This document shows positions 6,466 through 15,530 of a stretch of 42,565 nt of DNA, in pieces. Position 1 is the first letter of the stretch. Every line of letters starts with the position of its first letter. The stretch is from assembly GCA_028823105.1 (NCBI GenBank), contig JAPKCC010000014.1:1-42565 (forward strand), written 5' to 3'. The position numbers and the translations under genes were made by a program. The stretch is from Phycisphaerales bacterium (GTDB lineage: Bacteria > Planctomycetota > Phycisphaerae > Phycisphaerales > SM1A02). The notes below the pieces were generated by a model. The model was not told the DNA's origin. It made no database searches and worked only from the letters and a program-made list of their open reading frames with translations.

Positions 6466-7980
6466 TCAGGCGTCGGCGGCGATGTCGGGGAAGAGTGGTT
6501 TCAGGGCAGGGTAGAGGCGTTCGTAGATCGAGTGTCTCGCGGCCAGTACGGCGGCGTTGGGACCTGCTTCCGTTCGATCGACTTCGCTGACCGTCTTCCG
6601 GCAGGCCTCTTCGATGCTGGGGAACGCGCCGGCGCCGACCGCGGCGAGGATGGCGGCGCCGCACGCGGTACCTTCCGTGGTCGTGGTTGTAGTCGTGGGA
6701 ACGCCAAAGAGGTCGGCGCAGGTCTGTCGCCAGAGCGGGCTCTTGGCACCTCCGCCCGAGAGCCGGACGGTCTTCGGTTCGACTCCGGCCGCTCTCACGA
6801 GATCGAGGCACTGGGCGAGCCCGTGGGTGACCCCTTCGAAGACCGCACGGGCGAGATGCCGGCGATCGTGCCGTTGGTCGAGGCCGATGAACGTCCCCCG
6901 CGCATTCACGTCGGAATAGGGCGTTCTTTCGCCGGAGAGGTAAGGGAGGAAGAGAACTCCGCCCGCGCCGGCGGGGACCTCTTCTGCCATCGACTCGATG
7001 CGGGGGAAGGCTTCCGAGCCTGCTTCCTCGTCGATGTCTGGAACGATCGCCGACCGGAACCAGTCGAGGCTTCCGGCGCCGGAGAGCATGACGCCCATCA
7101 GGTGCCATCTCCCAGGGACCGCATGGCAGAACGCATGAAGCCGTCCGTCCGGGAGTGACCGCCATTCGTCGGTTGGGGCGAAGACGACGCCGCTGGTTCC
7201 CAACGTGGAACCGACGGTGCCTTCCGTGATCAGGCCGGTTCCGATCGCCGACGCCGCCTGGTCGCCGGCCCCCGCGACGATCGGAATCCCTTCGCGAAGT
7301 CCGGTTTCTGCAGCCGCGGCTGCGTGCACTGATGCCACAATCTCCGGGCCCTCGGCGGCATGCGGCCACCAGCTACGCGGGAGATCGAGTTCGCCGAGAA
7401 GTTCGTCGGACCATGTCCGATTTGCACAGTCAAAGACCGCGGTGCCGGAGGCATCGGAGACGTCCATCACGAGTTCGCCGGAGAGCCGATAGCGAATCCA
7501 GTCCTTGGGGAGCAGCACGGTGGTGACTCGGGCGTACGCTTCTGGTTCATGCTCCCGCATCCAGAGGAGTTTCGGTGCGGTGAACCCGGGAAGCATGCGA
7601 TTGCCGCAGAGTGAGACCAGTCGTTCAATCCCGATTCGGGATTCGACCGCATGGCACTGGGGTGCGCTGCGCCCGTCGTTCCAGAGAATGGCTGGACGGA
7701 TCGGGGTTGCCGAAGAGTCGAGGGCGACCAGGCCGTGCATCTGACCGGTGAGGCCGACGCCATCGATGGTGTCCGCGGTGACGCCGGCGGCTCGACATGC
7801 TTCGCCGATCGCCGCGATGGTGCTCGGCCACCAGTCGTCGGGATCTTGCTCCGACCAACCGGCCCGAGGGGCGGAGGGCGTGTGACTCCCGTTGCCGGTC
7901 GCGAGGACTCGGCCTTCCTGATTGAGGAGAATGGCCTTGGTACCGCTGGTCCCGACGTCGATGCCGATGAATAGGCTCAT
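6466..7980 (-). CDS. xylB: Xylulokinase (FGGY carbohydrate kinase)
   Basis: The 504-aa product has the usual length for xylulokinase, which phosphorylates D-xylulose to xylulose 5-phosphate for the pentose phosphate pathway. It starts MSLFIGIDVGTSGTKAILL, the FGGY phosphate-1 motif. LTGQMHGLV and PAILWNDGR mark the sugar-binding half typical of XylB rather than glycerol or gluconate kinases. Asp240 in GAGDQAAS is the expected catalytic base, and LSGGGAKSPLWRQ is the second FGGY signature. The ATG at 7980 fits the family N-terminus; a 35-codon upstream extension lacks homology. A run of seven threonines (VPTTTTTTTEG) replaces the usual short loop before GTACGAAILA. No xylose isomerase or xylose transporter is near. 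Confidence 0.92.
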   Translation of the reverse strand: MSLFIGIDVGTSGTKAILLNQEGRVLATGNGSHTPSAPRAGWSEQDPDDWWPSTIAAIGEACRAAGVTADTIDGVGLTGQMHGLVALDSSATPIRPAILWNDGRSAPQCHAVESRIGIERLVSLCGNRMLPGFTAPKLLWMREHEPEAYARVTTVLLPKDWIRYRLSGELVMDVSDASGTAVFDCANRTWSDELLGELDLPRSWWPHAAEGPEIVASVHAAAAAETGLREGIPIVAGAGDQAASAIGTGLITEGTVGSTLGTSGVVFAPTDEWRSLPDGRLHAFCHAVPGRWHLMGVMLSGAGSLDWFRSAIVPDIDEEAGSEAFPRIESMAEEVPAGAGGVLFLPYLSGERTPYSDVNARGTFIGLDQRHDRRHLARAVFEGVTHGLAQCLDLVRAAGVEPKTVRLSGGGAKSPLWRQTCADLFGVPTTTTTTTEGTACGAAILAAVGAGAFPSIEEACRKTVSEVDRTEAGPNAAVLAARHSIYERLYPALKPLFPDIAADA

Positions 7981-8026
7981 GGCGTGGATGGTACGGGCCG
8001 CGAGTTCGCCGCGAGCAGGAGGATCC

Positions 8027-8071
8027 AAAAACGGAAGGCCGGGACGAAATGCGATCGCATTCCGTCCCGGC
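8027..8071 (-). terminator. Intrinsic terminator of the exporter operon
   Basis: An almost perfect 34-base palindrome (8038-8071) is followed on the minus strand by CTTCCGTTTTTGG, whose T-run lies at 8031-8027. The one imperfect pair is a G-U on the minus-strand RNA but an A-C mismatch on the plus strand, so it is built for minus-strand transcription. It lies 70 bases after the stop of the last operon gene (8142) and just before xylB, which separates the two units. Confidence 0.8.
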
Positions 8072-8141
8072 GTCGATCCTTCCATTCGCTCGCGCGATGA
8101 TGCATCAGGTTCTGATGAACCGCATCGAAGCGTCGAACGAC

Positions 8142-8834
8142 TCAGTGATCAGGCTTGCCGTCACCGTCGTGATCATGGGCAACACCATCGCCGTGATCAT
8201 GCTCTCCGGCATCGGTATCGCCGGTCGAAGCGCCTTCGTTCTCTTCGCCGGCAAGCGAACCACGGCGAGGCATGCCTCGCATGGGCTTGCCGCCAACCCA
8301 GATCTCAGTGGCGTCAATGACGAAGAGGCCTTCATCGTTCCGCTCGTTGACCACGCCCTCGACGATGACGAATTTCAGAGGTTCGAGACCACCAGCACCT
8401 TCGGCATTCGCGGCGATTGGGGTACCGGCACTTCCGTTGAGTCGGATGGTGGCGGAACCGGCGGTGATTCCGTTGGGATCCTCGCAGCAGTAGTCCCAGG
8501 GAAGGGGGCAGTGATCTTCGTCGCCCATCAGCTCGCATGACAAGAGCGATGGATCCGCAACCGTGAAGATCGCGAGTCCGTCGACGAACGGTTCGACCCG
8601 GCCACCCACGCGTGCGAGGAAGACCACGGAGTCACCGACCGATGCGGTGGGCTTGATCTGAATGAGATCGACGACTTCTGTCGGGCGATCAGTGGTGAAG
8701 AATGCGGCGGGAATCGTCGCTCGGGTGGGGCCGACGTCATTGGACGCAGTGGTATCACCGCCGCCCTGATCGCAACCGTTGAGCGTGATGAAGAGGGCTG
8801 AAAGCCCGAGGAGCAAGTGTGTGTTTCGAGACAT
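8142..8834 (-). CDS. Lipoprotein with Cys cluster and His/Asp-rich tail, last gene of the exporter operon
   Basis: The 230-aa product starts at the ATG at 8834 (GGAG 10 bases before). It has a lipoprotein signal MSRNTHLLLGLSALFITLNGC, with the lipid-bearing Cys21. Residues ~55-180 look like a compact beta domain with an OB-like pattern (VGDSVVFLARVGG, then PFVDGLAIFTVAD), followed by the cysteines C100, C109, C116 and C117, the last two in PWDYCCE. The last 25 residues are Asp/His/Glu-rich (EHDHGDGVAHDHDGDGKPDH), a likely metal-binding tail. I recall related proteins in other planctomycetes but no named function. Its place 47 bases after an ABC permease suggests an extracytoplasmic partner, perhaps a metal chaperone, for the exporter. 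That role is inference. Confidence 0.75.
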   Translation of the reverse strand: MSRNTHLLLGLSALFITLNGCDQGGGDTTASNDVGPTRATIPAAFFTTDRPTEVVDLIQIKPTASVGDSVVFLARVGGRVEPFVDGLAIFTVADPSLLSCELMGDEDHCPLPWDYCCEDPNGITAGSATIRLNGSAGTPIAANAEGAGGLEPLKFVIVEGVVNERNDEGLFVIDATEIWVGGKPMRGMPRRGSLAGEENEGASTGDTDAGEHDHGDGVAHDHDGDGKPDH

Positions 8835-8881: not shown

Positions 8882-10063
8882 CTATGACGAACGAAGGGCT
8901 TCGGGTACCGGAAGTCGGAGGCAACGAATCGCGGGGATCACGGCTCCGACGATTCCGAGCGTGAGGCCGCCGAGAAGACCGAGGGCGACGACGCCGGGGC
9001 CGATCTGGATCCCGAAGACGCCCATGGAGAATCGGATGGTCACCTGATCGAGGACGAGAATGCCGATGGCGGCCGCCACCAAGGCTCCGATCGAGGCGGT
9101 GAGGATCGACTCTTCGACCAGACTACGAACGATGGCGAGTCGACTGTATCCCAACGTCTGGAGGGTGCCGATCTCCCGCACCCGGCTCGCGAATGCGGCA
9201 TAGGTGGTGTTGAGTCCGCCGATGACCCCCCCGGCCGCCACGAGGATGGCGGTGATCATCACCATGAATCGGATGGGCTTGAAGAAGGCGGCGAGCGAGG
9301 CGTAGTAGTCGCTCTCTCTGGTTGCCACGAGTTCGAGATCAAGTCGGGTCGCGGCGAAGCCGTGGGCGGATGTGAGGTCGCCGTCGGTGGTGCGAATAAC
9401 CACGCAGGAGAGGGTGTCACGTTGTCCAATGATGAGCAGGTCCGAGAGCGGAATCCAGATTTCGCCTTCGATGACCCCTCCGTCGGCATCGATTACGCCG
9501 ACGATGGTGAAGGGGCGTTCATCGACCACCAGCGTTGAACCGAGGATGCGATCTTCGCCTTCGAGTCCGAGGCCGCGGGCGGCGAGTCGGCCGATCGCGA
9601 CTTCGTCGGCGCCGGTCTCGGGGAATCGTCCCTCGGTCAGTCGTGCCTCCTGGTGCACGAGAAACGCCGACGGCGTGATTCCGCGGAACAGCGCGTTCGC
9701 CTCATTTTCCTCGGTCGGGGATTCCGTTTCCGTCTGCAGTTGGATCGGAATGGCCAGATGAACTTCCGGGGAAATTGCTTCGACGCCGGCGGCGATTGCG
9801 ATGCCGCGAATGCCGGTCGCGGCGATGCCGGGGGTTCGCATCGGGATTTCACTGCGCTCGACGCTCTCTTCGCTTCCGGCGCCCATGAGAATCACGTTGC
9901 GCGGTGACCCGCTGATCTTCAGTGAGTCCTGCATGCCGCTGACGAAGCCGCCGGCCGCCATGGCCAGCAGCACCACCAGTCCGCATCCGCCGGCACTCAT
10001 CAGGAGCCGACTCGGACTACGCCCGAGGTTTCGGACTGCATATTCAAAGGGAAGTCTGCGCAT
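8882..10063 (-). CDS. ABC transporter permease, FtsX/MacB type (second permease)
   Basis: The 393-aa product has the MacB/FtsX layout: one N-terminal membrane helix (about 18-42, after VRNLGRSPSRLLMSAG), a large periplasmic domain (~45-265) and three C-terminal helices (~270-300, 320-345, 355-380). The coupling motif REIGTLQTLGYSRLAIVRSLVEES lies between the first two C-terminal helices. The periplasmic domain contains NVILMGAGSEESVERSEI and several short beta segments. It has no fused ATPase, so it must use the separate ATPase encoded at 11243-11977 and probably forms a heterodimer with the permease encoded just before it (gap 19 bases). The protein likely couples ATP hydrolysis to substrate extrusion through the membrane fusion protein and TolC-like channel of the same operon. 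Confidence 0.9.
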   Translation of the reverse strand: MRRLPFEYAVRNLGRSPSRLLMSAGGCGLVVLLAMAAGGFVSGMQDSLKISGSPRNVILMGAGSEESVERSEIPMRTPGIAATGIRGIAIAAGVEAISPEVHLAIPIQLQTETESPTEENEANALFRGITPSAFLVHQEARLTEGRFPETGADEVAIGRLAARGLGLEGEDRILGSTLVVDERPFTIVGVIDADGGVIEGEIWIPLSDLLIIGQRDTLSCVVIRTTDGDLTSAHGFAATRLDLELVATRESDYYASLAAFFKPIRFMVMITAILVAAGGVIGGLNTTYAAFASRVREIGTLQTLGYSRLAIVRSLVEESILTASIGALVAAAIGILVLDQVTIRFSMGVFGIQIGPGVVALGLLGGLTLGIVGAVIPAIRCLRLPVPEALRSS

Positions 10064-10082: not shown

Positions 10083-11246
10083 TCAGACCGCACGGAACCC
10101 TTGCACGATTTCGCCGCGAGAAGCCCGGATCGCAGGCACCGCGCCTGCGAGCAATCCAAGTCCGACCGCGATCCCGGCGCCGATGACTGCGAGACGAGGG
10201 TCGTTCGCGATCTCGACGTTCATTCCTTCCATGGTCATGCTGAAACGTCCGAGGCTGACCACCACGGTCGAGGTCACGGCACCGACCACACCACCCGCCA
10301 AGCCGAGCAAGGCACCTTCGAGCAGCACCATCCAAGCGATTAAGCCACCGGTGTAGCCGAGGGTTTGGAGCACCGCGTGATCGCGGATTCGATCCCGCAT
10401 CGCCAGCACGATCGCGTTGGCCACCAGCGCCAAGACCGCGACGAGCGACGCCCATCCGACCCAGCTGGCGAAACCGACGAGTTCGACGATGTCCCGCACC
10501 GCGCGGCCGACGAAGGCTTTCTCGGGCCAGGTGCTGGTAGGGAATTCGTCGTACCGAAACGCCTCGTCGATGCTGGAGGCGATCGCCTCCATTTGCGACG
10601 GGTCGTCGACGTTGACGTTGAACTGGGTCACGATGCCCCCCGAGCCACCTCTGGTCACGGTCTCCTGAAGAAACGAGAGGTGGACGTAGGCGACGTTGCG
10701 ATCCTGCGGACGATCGCTGCCGAGGATGCCTGCGACAAAGACGGTGATTCCCGCCGCAGAGAATCGGTCTCCCACTTTAACTCCGCGGCGGAGGGCCAGT
10801 GACTCGCCGACCAATGCGGCATCGCTTCGCGATCGCCAAGCGGCAGCATCTCCCTCAAGGAACCGTCCGGCGTCGCTGATGGTCGCTTCGAGGTCGTCGT
10901 TCGGTACGCCGCGAAAGGTCACGACATCCAGGCTCGCTCGGCAGTTCGACACGAGGATCTGCATCGGGATGACCGACCGGACGCCGTCGATTCGTTCGAT
11001 TCGATCTCCATAGAACTGAGGAAGCCGACTTGTGAACGGACAGAAGCGGTTCTCCCGATAGACGACCAGGGTTGCATCCTTCGCACTACTGGTCGTGGCG
11101 GCGTGGACGCCGCCCCGCATCGCTTCCACGCTGGTGAACAGGAACATCGCGACCGCGATTCCGGTGACCGTCAACCCGGTGCGAATCGGCGCCCGGACAA
11201 TTTGGCGCCAGACAGTGGGAATGACGTTGATAGCACGACTCATCAT
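10083..11246 (-). CDS. ABC transporter permease, FtsX/MacB type (first permease), with periplasmic cysteines
   Basis: The 387-aa product starts at ATG ATG (11246) behind GGAGATCTCATC. Its start codons overlap the ATPase stop codon, so translation is coupled. The topology is FtsX-like: helix at ~20-42, periplasmic domain to ~265, then three helices with the coupling segment RDRIRDHAVLQTLGYTGG. Two cysteines stand in the predicted periplasmic domain, in ENRFCPFTSRLPQ and in ILVSNCRASLD. They could form a disulfide or bind a metal. The pairing of two dissimilar single permeases with one ATPase differs from the classical MacB homodimer. It is part of the exporter operon. Confidence 0.9.
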   Translation of the reverse strand: MMSRAINVIPTVWRQIVRAPIRTGLTVTGIAVAMFLFTSVEAMRGGVHAATTSSAKDATLVVYRENRFCPFTSRLPQFYGDRIERIDGVRSVIPMQILVSNCRASLDVVTFRGVPNDDLEATISDAGRFLEGDAAAWRSRSDAALVGESLALRRGVKVGDRFSAAGITVFVAGILGSDRPQDRNVAYVHLSFLQETVTRGGSGGIVTQFNVNVDDPSQMEAIASSIDEAFRYDEFPTSTWPEKAFVGRAVRDIVELVGFASWVGWASLVAVLALVANAIVLAMRDRIRDHAVLQTLGYTGGLIAWMVLLEGALLGLAGGVVGAVTSTVVVSLGRFSMTMEGMNVEIANDPRLAVIGAGIAVGLGLLAGAVPAIRASRGEIVQGFRAV

Positions 11247-11977
11247 GATGAGATCTCCGTCATGGTCTGGTTATGGGATTCCGTCCCGGACGAGTCGTCG
11301 GCATTCGAGTCGGCCAATTTCCCCTTCTCTAGGTGCAGCACGGTGTCGCACCAGACGGTGGTCTTCGGATCGTGGGTAACCATGACGATCGTTCTTCCGA
11401 GTTCGGTGTTCAACCGCTTGAGCAGATCCATGATGTTGGTAGCGCTCTCACGGTCGAGATCACCGGTCGGTTCGTCGGCGAGAATCAAGGTCGGGTCGGT
11501 CACGATGGCTCGGGCAATCGCCACTCGTTGTTCCTGGCCGCCGGAGAGTTGTCGAGGATAGTGATCGCTTCGATCAGCGATGCCGACGAGGTCGAGCGCG
11601 GCAGCCACCTTCTGATGGCGTTCCTTTCTCGAGAGCGAATGAAGAAGGAGGGGCAACTCGACATTCTCATAGGCCGTCAACACCGGGACGAGGTTGTAGA
11701 GCTGAAAGACGTACCCCACGGCTTCGCTCCGCCATTCCGCCAGAGCATTCCGCGAGAGCGTGTGCACGGGGCGCCCGTCGATCAACAACGAGCCCCGGGT
11801 GGGGCGGTCGATGCCTGCGAGGAGGTTGAGCAGGGTCGTCTTCCCGGATCCCGATGGTCCCATCAGGGCGACGAATCCTCCACGCTCGATGTCGAGATGC
11901 AGACCGTCAAGCGGTGTGATCTTCTCGCTGCCTCGGGTATAGGTCCGGGTGAGATCCCGGCATTCGATCAGGCTCAT
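11243..11977 (-). CDS. ABC transporter ATP-binding protein, LolD/MacB class
   Basis: The 244-aa ATPase supplies energy to the two permeases encoded downstream. It begins MSLIECRDLTRTYTRGSEKI; the ATG at 11977 overlaps the stop of the membrane fusion gene by 4 bases, which settles the start within a longer open frame. Motifs in order are Walker A GPSGSGKT, Q-loop VFQLYNLVP, signature LSGGQEQR, Walker B LILADEPTGDLD with the catalytic Glu, and the H-loop VTHD. The spacing GYVFQLYNLVPVLTAYENVELPL is that of the MacB/LolD/FtsE family. The final ~20 residues are an acidic, Ser-rich tail. Confidence 0.95.
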   Translation of the reverse strand: MSLIECRDLTRTYTRGSEKITPLDGLHLDIERGGFVALMGPSGSGKTTLLNLLAGIDRPTRGSLLIDGRPVHTLSRNALAEWRSEAVGYVFQLYNLVPVLTAYENVELPLLLHSLSRKERHQKVAAALDLVGIADRSDHYPRQLSGGQEQRVAIARAIVTDPTLILADEPTGDLDRESATNIMDLLKRLNTELGRTIVMVTHDPKTTVWCDTVLHLEKGKLADSNADDSSGTESHNQTMTEISS

Positions 11978-13536
11978 GTGTCGGCTCCGTTGCTTGAGTC
12001 CGGTTCCCGGAAGCGGATCGCGGTACCCATCTTGATTGTGGGGTCGAGGATGACGGCATCTCCCGGACGAAGTCCGGATCGAATCTCCACCCAGCCGTCG
12101 ACGCGGGCTTCGCCCACCTCCACCGACCGTCGTGCGGCGACCCCTTCGTTTCCGCTTCGTTCGTCGACGACCCAGATGTCGCCTTCCGGATCGAAGGCGG
12201 ATTCGGGTGCGAAGATTCGGTTGACGGTTCGTCGGACGCCGTCCTTGCGTTCGTCTTGGGAGGGAAGAATTCGGACTCGGGCGAGCATGTCGGGTTTGAG
12301 CAGCGGGGACGGATCGATGATGTGCACCTTCGCTTCGATGGTGTTCTTCGAGAGGTCCGCCCGATGGACGAAGCGGGTGATCACTCCTTGGAAGACGGTA
12401 TCGGGGAGAAGATCCACGATGATTTCTGCGGACTGTCCCACGCCGACCTTCGCCGCCTCGGCGAGTGGAATGTCCGCTCGCACCTGAAGCATCGTCGGGT
12501 CGTAGAGATGCACGACGTGGGCCCCGTGCTGACCGTTCGCAAATTGAATGGTCGAACCAGGCGATGCGATTCGTTCGATGACCACGCCGTCGATCGGCGA
12601 GACGACCGTGCATCGATCCAGAGCCAGGGCTGCGGTGTCTCGATCCGCCGCCGCTCTTCCGACTTCGGCCTCCGCGACCAGTAGGCCGGCTCGAGCGGAA
12701 TCGAGATCAAGCCGTTCCTTGATGCGGAGATCGCGGTCGGAGATCGCCGCGCTTCGTTCCGCGTCAGCCGCCTGCAGCGAGGCGGATACCGCGTCGCGTT
12801 CCCGCTCGAGTTGTGTGACCTGTGCCTCCAACGCTCGGAGTCGAAGGCCCATTCTGGCCACCGGGCCGGCTGCCACAGCACCTTCATCGACGAGCCCTCG
12901 CTTGCGGTCGTACTCGTCGCGCAGCTCTTCGTGATTCGACTCCACTTCCGCGATTCGCGACGGGAACGCCTCGAGATCCGCAGAGATCTTTGCCTTGTTC
13001 GCCTCTGCGACCGCCACTCGACGGTGTACCGAGATTCGCGTCTCGTAGTCAGCTTCAGCGGCGGTCAACGTCGCCTGTGCAGCGTTGAGGAGCCCGACTC
13101 TTCGATCAACTTCGGTTTCAGCGCGGCGAAGGTCGATTTCCGAGTCGGCTCGGATCAACGTCGCGACAGCCTGCCCGGCTGTCACGGCATCGCCTTCGAG
13201 TACGAGGATCGACTCCACGATCCCTTGCGTGAGCGCAGAGGCGTAGGTCGAGAAGGGTTCCGCTTCGACCCAGCCAGGCGCCTGCACCACCGCGTTTCCT
13301 GCCGCCGCGGACTCTGGATTTGGGGCTTCGTCGGTCTCCATGGTTCTGATCGCGACCGTGACCGCGGTCACGTCGGTGCGCGGCCTGACCGCATCCCAGC
13401 CGACGTAGGCGAGTAACGCCGCCGTCGCGAGGAGAATGAGGATGGGAACTCCGAGTCTGGAGAAGACCCGACGGGGGGGTGTCGGAACCATGTCGCCCGC
13501 CGAGGGGCGAATCGATTCGAGTCCTGAATCGGTCAT
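11974..13536 (-). CDS. Membrane fusion (HlyD/MacA-like) protein of tripartite exporter
   Basis: The 520-aa product has a cytoplasmic Pro-rich N-terminus and one membrane helix (about residues 28-47, LGVPILILLATAALLAYVGW). A lipoyl half-motif (GIVESILVLEGDAVTAGQAVATL) and a long coiled-coil hairpin of ~170 residues rich in Ala, Glu and Arg follow. The second lipoyl half (CTVVSPIDGVVIERIASPGSTI) and beta-barrel segments (VGQSAEIIVDLLPDTVFQGVITRF) complete the fold. The coiled coil is longer than in RND adaptors and fits contact with a TolC-type channel. The ATG at 13536 overlaps the stop of the upstream TolC-like gene by 4 bases. It should link the ABC permeases to the outer-membrane channel. 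Confidence 0.92.
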   Translation of the reverse strand: MTDSGLESIRPSAGDMVPTPPRRVFSRLGVPILILLATAALLAYVGWDAVRPRTDVTAVTVAIRTMETDEAPNPESAAAGNAVVQAPGWVEAEPFSTYASALTQGIVESILVLEGDAVTAGQAVATLIRADSEIDLRRAETEVDRRVGLLNAAQATLTAAEADYETRISVHRRVAVAEANKAKISADLEAFPSRIAEVESNHEELRDEYDRKRGLVDEGAVAAGPVARMGLRLRALEAQVTQLERERDAVSASLQAADAERSAAISDRDLRIKERLDLDSARAGLLVAEAEVGRAAADRDTAALALDRCTVVSPIDGVVIERIASPGSTIQFANGQHGAHVVHLYDPTMLQVRADIPLAEAAKVGVGQSAEIIVDLLPDTVFQGVITRFVHRADLSKNTIEAKVHIIDPSPLLKPDMLARVRILPSQDERKDGVRRTVNRIFAPESAFDPEGDIWVVDERSGNEGVAARRSVEVGEARVDGWVEIRSGLRPGDAVILDPTIKMGTAIRFREPDSSNGADT

Positions 13537-15011
13537 GATTGGATCTCCGGGCCGCGGCTCGAGGAGCGAACGGCGGTCTTGGTTTGATCAGTGGTCGTGG
13601 TGGCGTGGTCGATGTCTGGGACCACCGGAGGCATTGGCGGGAGGTCGAATGAACCTCCAACCTGTTCCTGCAGCGAGATGCGATCGGTGATCGCCGTGAC
13701 TTGGAATTTCACGAGGCGCCGTTCGGCGGTGATTCGTCGTTGCTGAGCAAGGAGGAGCACGGTCAGATCAATGACGCCTTCGCGATAGGCGGACTCCGCG
13801 AGCGTTTCCGCTTCCGTCGCGGGGGCGAGGACCGTCTCAGAGTAGGCGATGCGTTGCTGGTCAGATCGCAGGAACGCTTCGCGACTCGAGCGGACTTCGC
13901 CGATGGCTCGACGACGTATGGAGAGCAGTTCGAGTTGTGCGCGATCTAGTCTCGCATTCGCCGCGGCGATCGCGGCACTGCCATCATCGAGGATCGGCAG
14001 GGTGATTCTGGCACCGGGGAGCACGGCTTGGCGATCACCGAAGTTCTGGTTCCAGGCTGCTCCGACGCCCACTTCCGGAAGACGTTTCGATCCGGCAAGG
14101 CGGCATTCCGCTTCGGCGGCGAGGACCCGCATTCGGGCCGCAGCGACGTCGAGTCTCGTGGCGCGAGTGAGTTCGACGATCCGATCCTCGTCGGGAACGG
14201 ATCCACCGGAGTCCGCGAGTGAACCTCGCAGATCGAAATCGGTGGAGGCGTCGGGACAACCGATGCCTGCGAGAACTTCGAGTTTCATCTGGCGTGCGGT
14301 GCGCCGGCTGGCATCGGCAGTGGCGGCGCTCTCGGCGGCATTCAGTCTGGCGCGGTCGAGATCGATTCGGGATGCTTCGCCGGCCTCGAAGAGGCGGGTC
14401 ACGGCATCGACGGTTCGGCCGGTGGCCTCGGCGTGGGCTTGATCGAGGAGATGCGTCGCTTCGGCGGCGATCGCGGCGGCATGAACCCGTCGCACCTTCG
14501 CGTCGAGCCTAATCATCGTCTCGGCGGCGAGCAGGATCATCGCGCGTCGATCGGCGTCGCGGGCGTCCACTCGATCCGGTCGAGTCCAGATCCAGGTCAG
14601 TTGCTGGGTGATGCCGACGATCGCCGGGGCGCCGGAAGCACCATCCACGGCGACGCCGATGGCGAGGTCCAACGCCGGATTCGGTGGAAGATCGGCCTGG
14701 GCGAGTTCGGCACGAGCGAGGTCGAGCTCCGCTAAAGACACCCGAATACCGGCATCCCGTTGGAACGCGACGCGGACCGCGGCGTCGGCATCGAGGGGCG
14801 TGAGCCCGTTCCAAACCGACGGAGGCGAGACCGGTGACGCCTGGAGCGCCTCAAGGTCGATCGATTCGCCAAGGCGAGGCCGAACGAGTGCGTCCACGGT
14901 GGACCGATCGGACGTGGGATCACTCGAGATACAACCCGACGTCGTCAGGGCGAGCCCGGACAGCAGTAGGAGCGGCGCGGTGCCGCGGTTCTTAAGAGTT
15001 GAAAGGATCAC
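13533..15011 (-). CDS. TolC/OprM-like outer-membrane efflux lipoprotein
   Basis: The 492-aa product uses a GTG start at 15011, chosen because GGAG lies 6 bases upstream and a lipoprotein signal (PLLLLSGLALTTSGC, Cys27) follows directly; the longer frame starts with TTG and adds charged residues. The body shows the duplicated outer-membrane efflux pattern: Ala/Arg/Glu-rich helices with NPALDLAIGV and WTRPDRVDARDADRR in the first half, and NQNFGDRQAVLPGARITLPILDDG in the second. It should form the outer-membrane exit duct of the exporter. It lies 78 bases after the Cys-rich gene. Lipidation suggests an OprM/CusC-like anchoring. Confidence 0.9.
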   Translation of the reverse strand: MILSTLKNRGTAPLLLLSGLALTTSGCISSDPTSDRSTVDALVRPRLGESIDLEALQASPVSPPSVWNGLTPLDADAAVRVAFQRDAGIRVSLAELDLARAELAQADLPPNPALDLAIGVAVDGASGAPAIVGITQQLTWIWTRPDRVDARDADRRAMILLAAETMIRLDAKVRRVHAAAIAAEATHLLDQAHAEATGRTVDAVTRLFEAGEASRIDLDRARLNAAESAATADASRRTARQMKLEVLAGIGCPDASTDFDLRGSLADSGGSVPDEDRIVELTRATRLDVAAARMRVLAAEAECRLAGSKRLPEVGVGAAWNQNFGDRQAVLPGARITLPILDDGSAAIAAANARLDRAQLELLSIRRRAIGEVRSSREAFLRSDQQRIAYSETVLAPATEAETLAESAYREGVIDLTVLLLAQQRRITAERRLVKFQVTAITDRISLQEQVGGSFDLPPMPPVVPDIDHATTTTDQTKTAVRSSSRGPEIQS

Positions 15012-15089
15012 GATGGACTCCGAACGAAGTTCACGACGACAAACTCTGGTGCGCAAGGCAGTCCAGAGAACGACGGGGTTTCTTCGGAG

Positions 15090-15530
15090 TCAGCGTTGGA
15101 TGATAATGATGCGACGCAGCCATCTCGGGGACCTGGTGGGGTCCTTGTCCGGTGGCGGTTCACTCTGGTATTGGCCAGGTTCGAATCGGTCTTTGGAACC
15201 GACGACGGCTTCGACCGGCACGTTCATCACGTCGGGAAGGAAGGCGATGGTATCGAGCGCGATTCGAAGATCTTGATCGACGGTCGCCGGTACCTTGAGG
15301 CAGCAGGCTTCTCCACACCCGCTGTCGTCGTTCGCCGGTGGGGGAGCATCGGTTCCCTCATCTGCCTGATCGACCTGATGGGCGGAACAGCAGGATGGAA
15401 GCAGTCCAGCAGCCGACTCGGGGCCGGAAAGTGCCGCGGCACTGCGAAGCACACAACAGCACAACGGCATCGCGATCACGAGTGTTGTCGTGACCAAAAG
15501 GCGCATGAAGTTGTGATGCATGAGACGCAT
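15090..15530 (-). CDS. Cys-rich exported protein, first gene of exporter operon
   Basis: The 146-aa product (if started at the ATG at 15530; 15521 and 15506 are alternatives, none with a strong ribosome site) opens with an export signal (MRLLVTTTLVIAMPL). Eight cysteines follow in three clusters: CCC (24-26), CC (47-48) and C72, C76-C77 in GCGEACCLKV. A His stands beside the second cluster (CCSAHQ). The C-terminal half is Pro- and Asp-rich and ends with a basic stretch and IIIIQR. The Cys content in a small exported protein points to metal binding or thiol redox function. No family was recognised. Position as the first gene before an efflux system resembles small metal-binding leader proteins of metal-resistance operons; this is inference. 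Confidence 0.7.
   Translation of the reverse strand: MRLMHHNFMRLLVTTTLVIAMPLCCCVLRSAAALSGPESAAGLLPSCCSAHQVDQADEGTDAPPPANDDSGCGEACCLKVPATVDQDLRIALDTIAFLPDVMNVPVEAVVGSKDRFEPGQYQSEPPPDKDPTRSPRWLRRIIIIQR

Follow-up and report, generated by a model that had tools for sequence, protein, structure and literature searches.

A cysteine-bearing OB-fold lipoprotein of Planctomycetota tied to a MacB-type exporter, and its possible role in soft-metal export

What a small lipoprotein contributes when its gene closes the operon of an ATP-binding cassette (ABC) transporter is the question raised by a gene on contig JAPKCC010000014.1 of a Phycisphaerales bacterium (assembly GCA_028823105.1), positions 1 to 42,565 of which are called the window below. 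A first-pass annotation had credited the protein with a lipobox, a compact beta-type domain resembling the oligonucleotide/oligosaccharide-binding (OB) fold, four cysteines and a histidine-rich tail, and had proposed that it handles metal. The interpretation favoured here, with confidence a little better than even, is that the lipoprotein is a dedicated extracytoplasmic metal-handling partner of a MacB-type tripartite pump for soft, thiol-loving ions.

The structural part of the earlier description is borne out. C21 of the protein is preceded by the lipobox-like residues TLNG, and a cysteine occupies this position in 81 of 83 homologues. An AlphaFold2 model built with 81 homologues, in which 126 residues have a predicted local distance difference test (pLDDT) score of at least 90, places an OB barrel at residues 49-184, and its matches in the PDB (Foldseek/VIA) are OB-fold domains of aminoacyl-tRNA synthetases, MCM, Ten1 and similar proteins, the best among the matches listed having a Z score of 9.9 over residues 53-192. 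The protein thus belongs with the five-stranded OB barrels, to which 12 of 81 family members also show weak Pfam matches. The four cysteines are where they had been reported, at C100, C109, C116 and C117, and are conserved far beyond chance: among 85 aligned Planctomycetota homologues C109 and C116 are invariant (85/85 each), 79 retain C100, 82 retain C117, and P112, W113 and D114 occur in 82-84. No Pfam or NCBIfam family matches the lipoprotein of the window, its homologues yield nothing in these libraries beyond chance and weak generic OB matches, and a profile search of PDB sequences with the family returns chance matches only. Judged by sequence, the lipoprotein is a member of a family defined by four cysteines and unnamed in Pfam and NCBIfam, in agreement with the earlier statement that it fits no named family.

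The tail fares differently. Five histidines, not the six claimed, are counted in residues 190-230; at least four histidines in the last 45 residues are found in only 11 of 85 homologues, the nearest relatives and a few others; and DHDGDGKPD is a calcium-loop-type repeat (DxDxDGxxD) which also ends unrelated proteins in other phyla. The tail was rejected as a metal site because of this poor conservation and because the same motif ends unrelated proteins, so that of the combination once read as typical of metal handling the thiol cluster stands and the His/Asp tail does not.

The family is widespread. The protein is 46-91% identical to four near relatives in Phycisphaerales-type genomes, and homologues occur in 88 of 294 sampled Planctomycetota genomes by single-sequence search and in 92 of 294 by profile search, as well as in 20 of 145 genomes of a second, Verrucomicrobiota-type phylum (entered via an Akkermansiaceae genome). 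Carriage on plasmids was rejected, a tblastn search of PLSDB having given zero matches. One homologue (L076, G270:C6:40191-41102) is a tandem double domain, the first domain of which has a different cysteine pattern.

The functional tie to the permeases that the annotation had suspected is supported by gene order. In 83 of 85 Planctomycetota loci the lipoprotein gene directly follows that of permease 2, within a conserved core ordered membrane fusion protein, ATPase, permease 1, permease 2, lipoprotein; family f30 departs from this arrangement and has permease 2, lipoprotein, adaptor, ATPase, permease 1. Of the 294 genomes, 103 encode permease 1 and 92 the lipoprotein, and 86 have both, where about 32 would be expected if the two were independent. 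Homologues lacking the cysteines, or lying mostly away from transporters, had been named in advance as contrary evidence, and the main family shows neither, its cysteines being near-invariant and its genes beside permease 2. A natural experiment is provided by one Verrucomicrobiota-type lineage, in which the six homologues examined (L177-L182) are without the cysteine cluster and have no such transporter within about 7 kb; ten operon-linked homologues of the same phylum have the cluster, and their permease 1 has the cysteine pair described below. This joint absence of cysteine cluster and transporter is counted in favour of the metal-handling interpretation. The six genes also share a conserved neighbourhood of citrate synthase-like, SmpB-like and TsaB-like genes.

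The transporter itself is, on the evidence of its domain matches, a MacB-type (type VII) ABC exporter: both permeases of the window exceed the Pfam cut-offs for MacB_PCD and FtsX, and the export partners HlyD_D23, RND_mfp and OEP are above cut-off. More specific identities were rejected. The NCBIfam MacB equivalog (PRK10535, 966) is not reached by the ATPase (213.6 bits) or by permease 2 (15.4 bits), and lipoprotein release of the LolCDE kind is not indicated by scores of 229.9 against 307.75 for LolD and 57.3 against 362.45 for LolCE (NCBIfam).

A further feature of this exporter is a pair of cysteines in permease 1, C69 (in CPxTSxLPxxY) and C102 (in NC[RG]xSLDVVTFxG), which is present in 78 of 78 complete copies and lies inside the MacB-like periplasmic domain (Pfam, residues 23-228). 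The permease-1 profile also matches genes in which one or two TGA codons stand in frame; in about 17 genomes or loci such a codon coincides with C69 or C102 or comes immediately after C102. In the f28 family a CU pair at the C102 site would add selenocysteine beside cysteine (U = TGA). Examples of the TGA-bearing motifs are TWUPTSSELP and TTNCUSFEP. Two lipoproteins show the same substitution, L199 with TGA at C100 and C116 (LPPUPSNEGCATPWDYUC) and L198 with TGA at C117 (PWDYCU), and permease 1 of both loci also has TGA at C69.

In order to interpret these codons, selenocysteine must be separated from a change in the genetic code. Reading through TGA raises the permease-1 score in each of the 17 loci; those of f28 type climb from about 200 to about 340, and a few others gain less. 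A general reassignment of TGA was rejected because the scores of the ATPase, the adaptor and permease 2 barely move on read-through in most loci. SelB is above cut-off in the TGA-bearing genomes except G131, which has a partial match, and tRNA-Sec is found in most of them at 69-75 bits. The RNA after the TGA is more stable than shuffled sequences, with a mean z of -1.25 (n=32, three of them chance motif matches), while the mean folding z at the same place in cysteine homologues is +0.15 (n=46). In-frame TGA at conserved cysteines, cysteine homologues, the decoding machinery and a stem-loop thus all point to selenoproteins in these relatives, and the TGA is very probably read as selenocysteine. 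The window itself does not belong with them, since neither SelB nor tRNA-Sec exceeds the cut-off in its genome, where cysteine is used. Selenocysteine was found to be unsupported in G139, where the region shows no readable homologue, and in G360, which has no SelB or tRNA-Sec above cut-off. Just after permease 2 in a further locus (L196, G001) lies a small lipoprotein with an in-frame TGA (GGDCUTP) which the family model does not recognise and which is possibly a very divergent form of the OB lipoprotein.

A further recurrent component stands at the other end of the operon. A small exported cysteine-rich protein heads 64 of 72 evaluable operons; as controls, the same filter gave 2/72 for the opposite strand and, on the downstream side, 1/65 and 3/65. 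The sequence of this leader is very divergent (mean column identity 14%); C47, C48 and C72 are nevertheless invariant, at least 90% of the leaders retain C26, C77 and a PP close to the C-terminus, and 54 of the 64 have a hydrophobic C-terminal tail. The copper-responsive leaders CutF and CruR combine a secretory (Sec) signal, a cysteine metal motif and a C-terminal PP stalling-type motif at the head of metal operons (PMC9973294, PMC9426467), and the present leader shares with them its operon-head position, signal peptide, cysteine motif and C-terminal PP. It is called CutF-like in design, and not a member, because the DUF2946 model (PF11162) matches none of 63 leaders; it also has more cysteines, and its regulatory role is putative. 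The annotation had left open whether the lipoprotein delivers substrate or senses it, and delivery is preferred because this separate leader is the better candidate for a sensor.

The nature of the substrate is suggested by the genes found near some of the operons. ArsR-type metalloregulators above the NCBIfam subfamily cut-off lie upstream of the operon in two loci (L069, L098), and in three others (L074, L183, L184) the operon is adjoined by regulators of MerR type, which carry three cysteines in the metal-binding half and best match mercury MerR at 120-130 bits, below the NCBIfam cut-off of 150.85. Two tandem HMA lipoproteins follow permease 2 by about 1-2 kb in L183 and L184, and the first of them has UxxU in its metal site (GMDUGQU, in-frame TGA). 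A cysteine-type copy of the lipoprotein (L175), which stands alone in a genome with a complete operon elsewhere (L176), lies next to a CopA-type multicopper oxidase, whose best NCBIfam match, copper_res_A, is below cut-off at 401 bits, and next to a small protein of YHS type. According to a recent review (PMC13188914), most selenoprotein transporters are linked to heavy-metal handling. As far as gene neighbourhoods can indicate, the regulators, the HMA lipoproteins and the copper-oxidase locus point to soft metals.

If these observations are combined, a mechanism can be proposed in which Cu(I), Hg(II) or a similar ion would be captured by the lipidated OB domain through its CxPWDYCC cluster, the lipoprotein would dock on permease 1 at its MacB-like periplasmic domain, and the metal would pass by ligand exchange to C69 and C102. 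ATP-driven mechanotransmission would then push it out through the adaptor and TolC, and the leader, like CutF, may sense metal in the periplasm while it is itself being exported. Linkage, the conserved cysteines and the exchange of TGA for cysteine codons are shown by sequence and statistics; the decoding as selenocysteine, the identity of the metal, the outward direction and the hand-over between the proteins are what we infer. The coordinates of the components in the window are collected in Table 1.

Table 1. Components of the exporter operon and sites in the lipoprotein gene, in window coordinates.
Feature	Position	Strand	Evidence or remark
OB-fold thiol lipoprotein, gene under study	8142..8834	minus	230 amino acids
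Lipobox Cys21 codon, predicted lipidated Cys	8772..8774	minus	TLNGC; C in 81/83 homologues
Cys cluster C100...DxC109xxPWDYC116C117	8484..8537	minus	homologue alignment; TGA in L199, L198
His/Asp tail with DHDGDGKPD repeat	8145..8213	minus	not conserved across family
Permease 2, MacB_PCD + FtsX	8882..10063	minus	Pfam PF12704 58.5 bits, PF02687 43.5 bits
Permease 1, MacB_PCD + FtsX	10083..11246	minus	Pfam; C69 codon 11040-11042, C102 codon 10941-10943
ABC ATPase, LolD/MacB type	11243..11977	minus	Pfam ABC_tran 125 bits
Periplasmic adaptor, membrane fusion protein	11974..13536	minus	HlyD_D23 58.5 bits; TIGR01730 126.7 vs cut-off 94.9
TolC-family outer-membrane factor	13533..15056, start uncertain 14990-15056	minus	Pfam OEP 95.6 bits
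Cys-rich exported leader, operon head	15090..15530	minus	146 amino acids; CutF-like architecture

The genes run on the minus strand, which the annotation had left unstated, in the order leader, TolC-type factor, adaptor, ATPase, permease 1, permease 2, lipoprotein, and neighbours overlap by 4 bases or are separated by gaps of less than about 50 bases. The TolC-type gene belongs to only part of the operons and was undetected in many homologous ones. The lipoprotein gene had been described as the last of the operon; it is the last conserved one, and it is followed on the same strand by a FGGY-type sugar kinase gene (6466-8085, minus), which takes this place in near relatives too and is not conserved with the family.

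The evidence must also be weighed against other explanations, one of which arises from the cysteines themselves, since the Cys/Sec cluster is equally compatible with redox activity. The lipoprotein and permease 1 might form a thiol/selenol-disulfide relay in which the cluster cycles between dithiol and disulfide, in the service of export or processing of low-molecular thiols, persulfides or disulfide-bonded products. Such a relay would suit the vicinal CC and CU pairs, the placing of selenocysteine next to cysteine in f28 and the observation, made in PMC13188914, that the exchange of cysteine for selenocysteine is typical of redox-active cysteines. It is nonetheless judged unlikely, given that the fold of the lipoprotein is OB and not thioredoxin-like, that several operons are adjoined by metal regulators and HMA proteins, and that no thioredoxin, Dsb or thiol enzyme recurs in the operon neighbourhoods. 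The exporter might instead secrete a peptide, the leader being the substrate and the lipoprotein a chaperone of its cysteines. MacAB-TolC exports the cysteine-rich peptide STII, a link of MacB to a secreted enterotoxin is cited in PMC9820375, and the place of the leader at the head of 64 of 72 operons is in keeping with this idea, which we nevertheless consider improbable: a sequence as divergent as that of the leader which yet keeps its PP and hydrophobic tail is better explained by a regulatory leader of CutF/CruR type, and the stand-alone lipoprotein among the copper genes of L175 has no leader of this kind.

Metal uptake rather than export is the remaining alternative, with the lipoprotein as a ZrgE-like helper comparable to that of the zinc uptake system ZrgABCDE. 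The logic of the genes is alike, in that an ATPase and a MacB-like permease are followed by a small exported cysteine-bearing protein encoded last, and an hhalign comparison of the lipoprotein family with DUF3299, the family of ZrgE, aligns the cysteine pairs of the two. Its probability of 2.6% (E 0.018) is not significant, and any distant relationship to DUF3299 is at most tentative; membership in DUF3299 was rejected, none of 81 family members matching PF11736. The permeases differ as well, the ZrgB-type zinc permease of Pseudomonas being without C69 and C102; the operon shows no gene of ZrgA type; and the adaptor and TolC genes, which Zrg lacks, speak for export. Import of this kind is regarded as very unlikely. 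PDB 4hsp, a solved DUF3299 relative, is not among the 50 structural matches listed, which excludes nothing. DUF3299 proteins with a CCFG motif are common in Planctomycetota (40 of 149 genomes); one of their genes (L130, G132:C212:25253-25537) lies on the other strand about 0.6 kb from the lipoprotein gene of its genome, and in another locus (L122, G116:C14) a DUF3299 domain shares one frame with a NicO/RcnA-like membrane segment.

Several observations weigh against a metal-handling partnership itself. The window contains no metal regulators or metal genes, and most other loci are likewise without metal-related neighbours. To our knowledge, the substrates of MacB-type pumps are antibiotics, peptides and lipoproteins and do not include metal ions. 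Two lipoprotein genes (L080, L106) stand alone, without linkage to permease 2, and a divergent OB-fold lipoprotein subfamily with a CPFC motif (DHDPSTCPFCKWKW; L208-L213) has no adjacent permeases of the MacB-operon type. Most selenocysteine-type permease-1 operons (the f28 family) are without a recognisable lipoprotein, and the lipoprotein is therefore not universally required. On the side of selenocysteine, G223, G272 and G131, all of them fragmented genomes, gave no tRNA-Sec match, and several of the genomes are metagenome-assembled.

The proposed system can be placed among known ones by its components. With MacAB-TolC it has in common the MacB_PCD and FtsX permease domains, the HlyD-type adaptor, the TolC-type factor and the LolD/MacB-type ATPase, and it differs in having a separate ATPase, two different permeases, an invariant Cys/Sec pair in permease 1, a dedicated OB-fold cysteine lipoprotein and a cysteine-rich leader, with a TolC gene in some operons only. 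The Sao (Sec-assisted organometallic) system resembles it in combining a selenoprotein permease, an ABC architecture and a suspected soft-metal substrate; Sao has substrate-binding subunits, whereas the system described here is a MacB-type exporter, and the NCBIfam Sao models, including SaoP, match neither permease 1 nor the lipoprotein in their cysteine or selenocysteine forms. No overlap with the Tso operon was found, as judged through NCBIfam models (June 2026) only. CusCFBA is a proton-driven copper and silver efflux system of the resistance-nodulation-division type with a methionine-rich periplasmic donor, CusF; the present proposal has a periplasmic metal donor and a tripartite pump in common with it, and differs in being ABC-driven and based on cysteine and selenocysteine.

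The class of transporter is known. The libraries and literature searched contain neither this combination nor the OB lipoprotein family nor the two selenoprotein families; a 2026 inventory of 119 prokaryotic selenoprotein families (PMC13188914) lists no such family under permease, lipoprotein or FtsX. That Planctomycetota and a Verrucomicrobiota-type phylum possess a widespread and undescribed ABC soft-metal exporter, in which a Cys/Sec OB-fold lipoprotein passes its ion to a Cys/Sec pair of a MacB-type permease under expression gated by a co-exported leader, and which brings with it two new selenoprotein families, is a proposition that we hold to be evenly balanced between true and false. If it is true, a MacB-type exporter with a thiol/selenol relay would represent a novel means of driving soft-metal efflux, the ABC counterpart of Cus, and selenocysteine in place of cysteine in the permease and in the lipoprotein that serves it would enlarge the selenoproteins by two families, whose members standard annotation would cut at the TGA, in a system that is common in Planctomycetota and yet unnamed.
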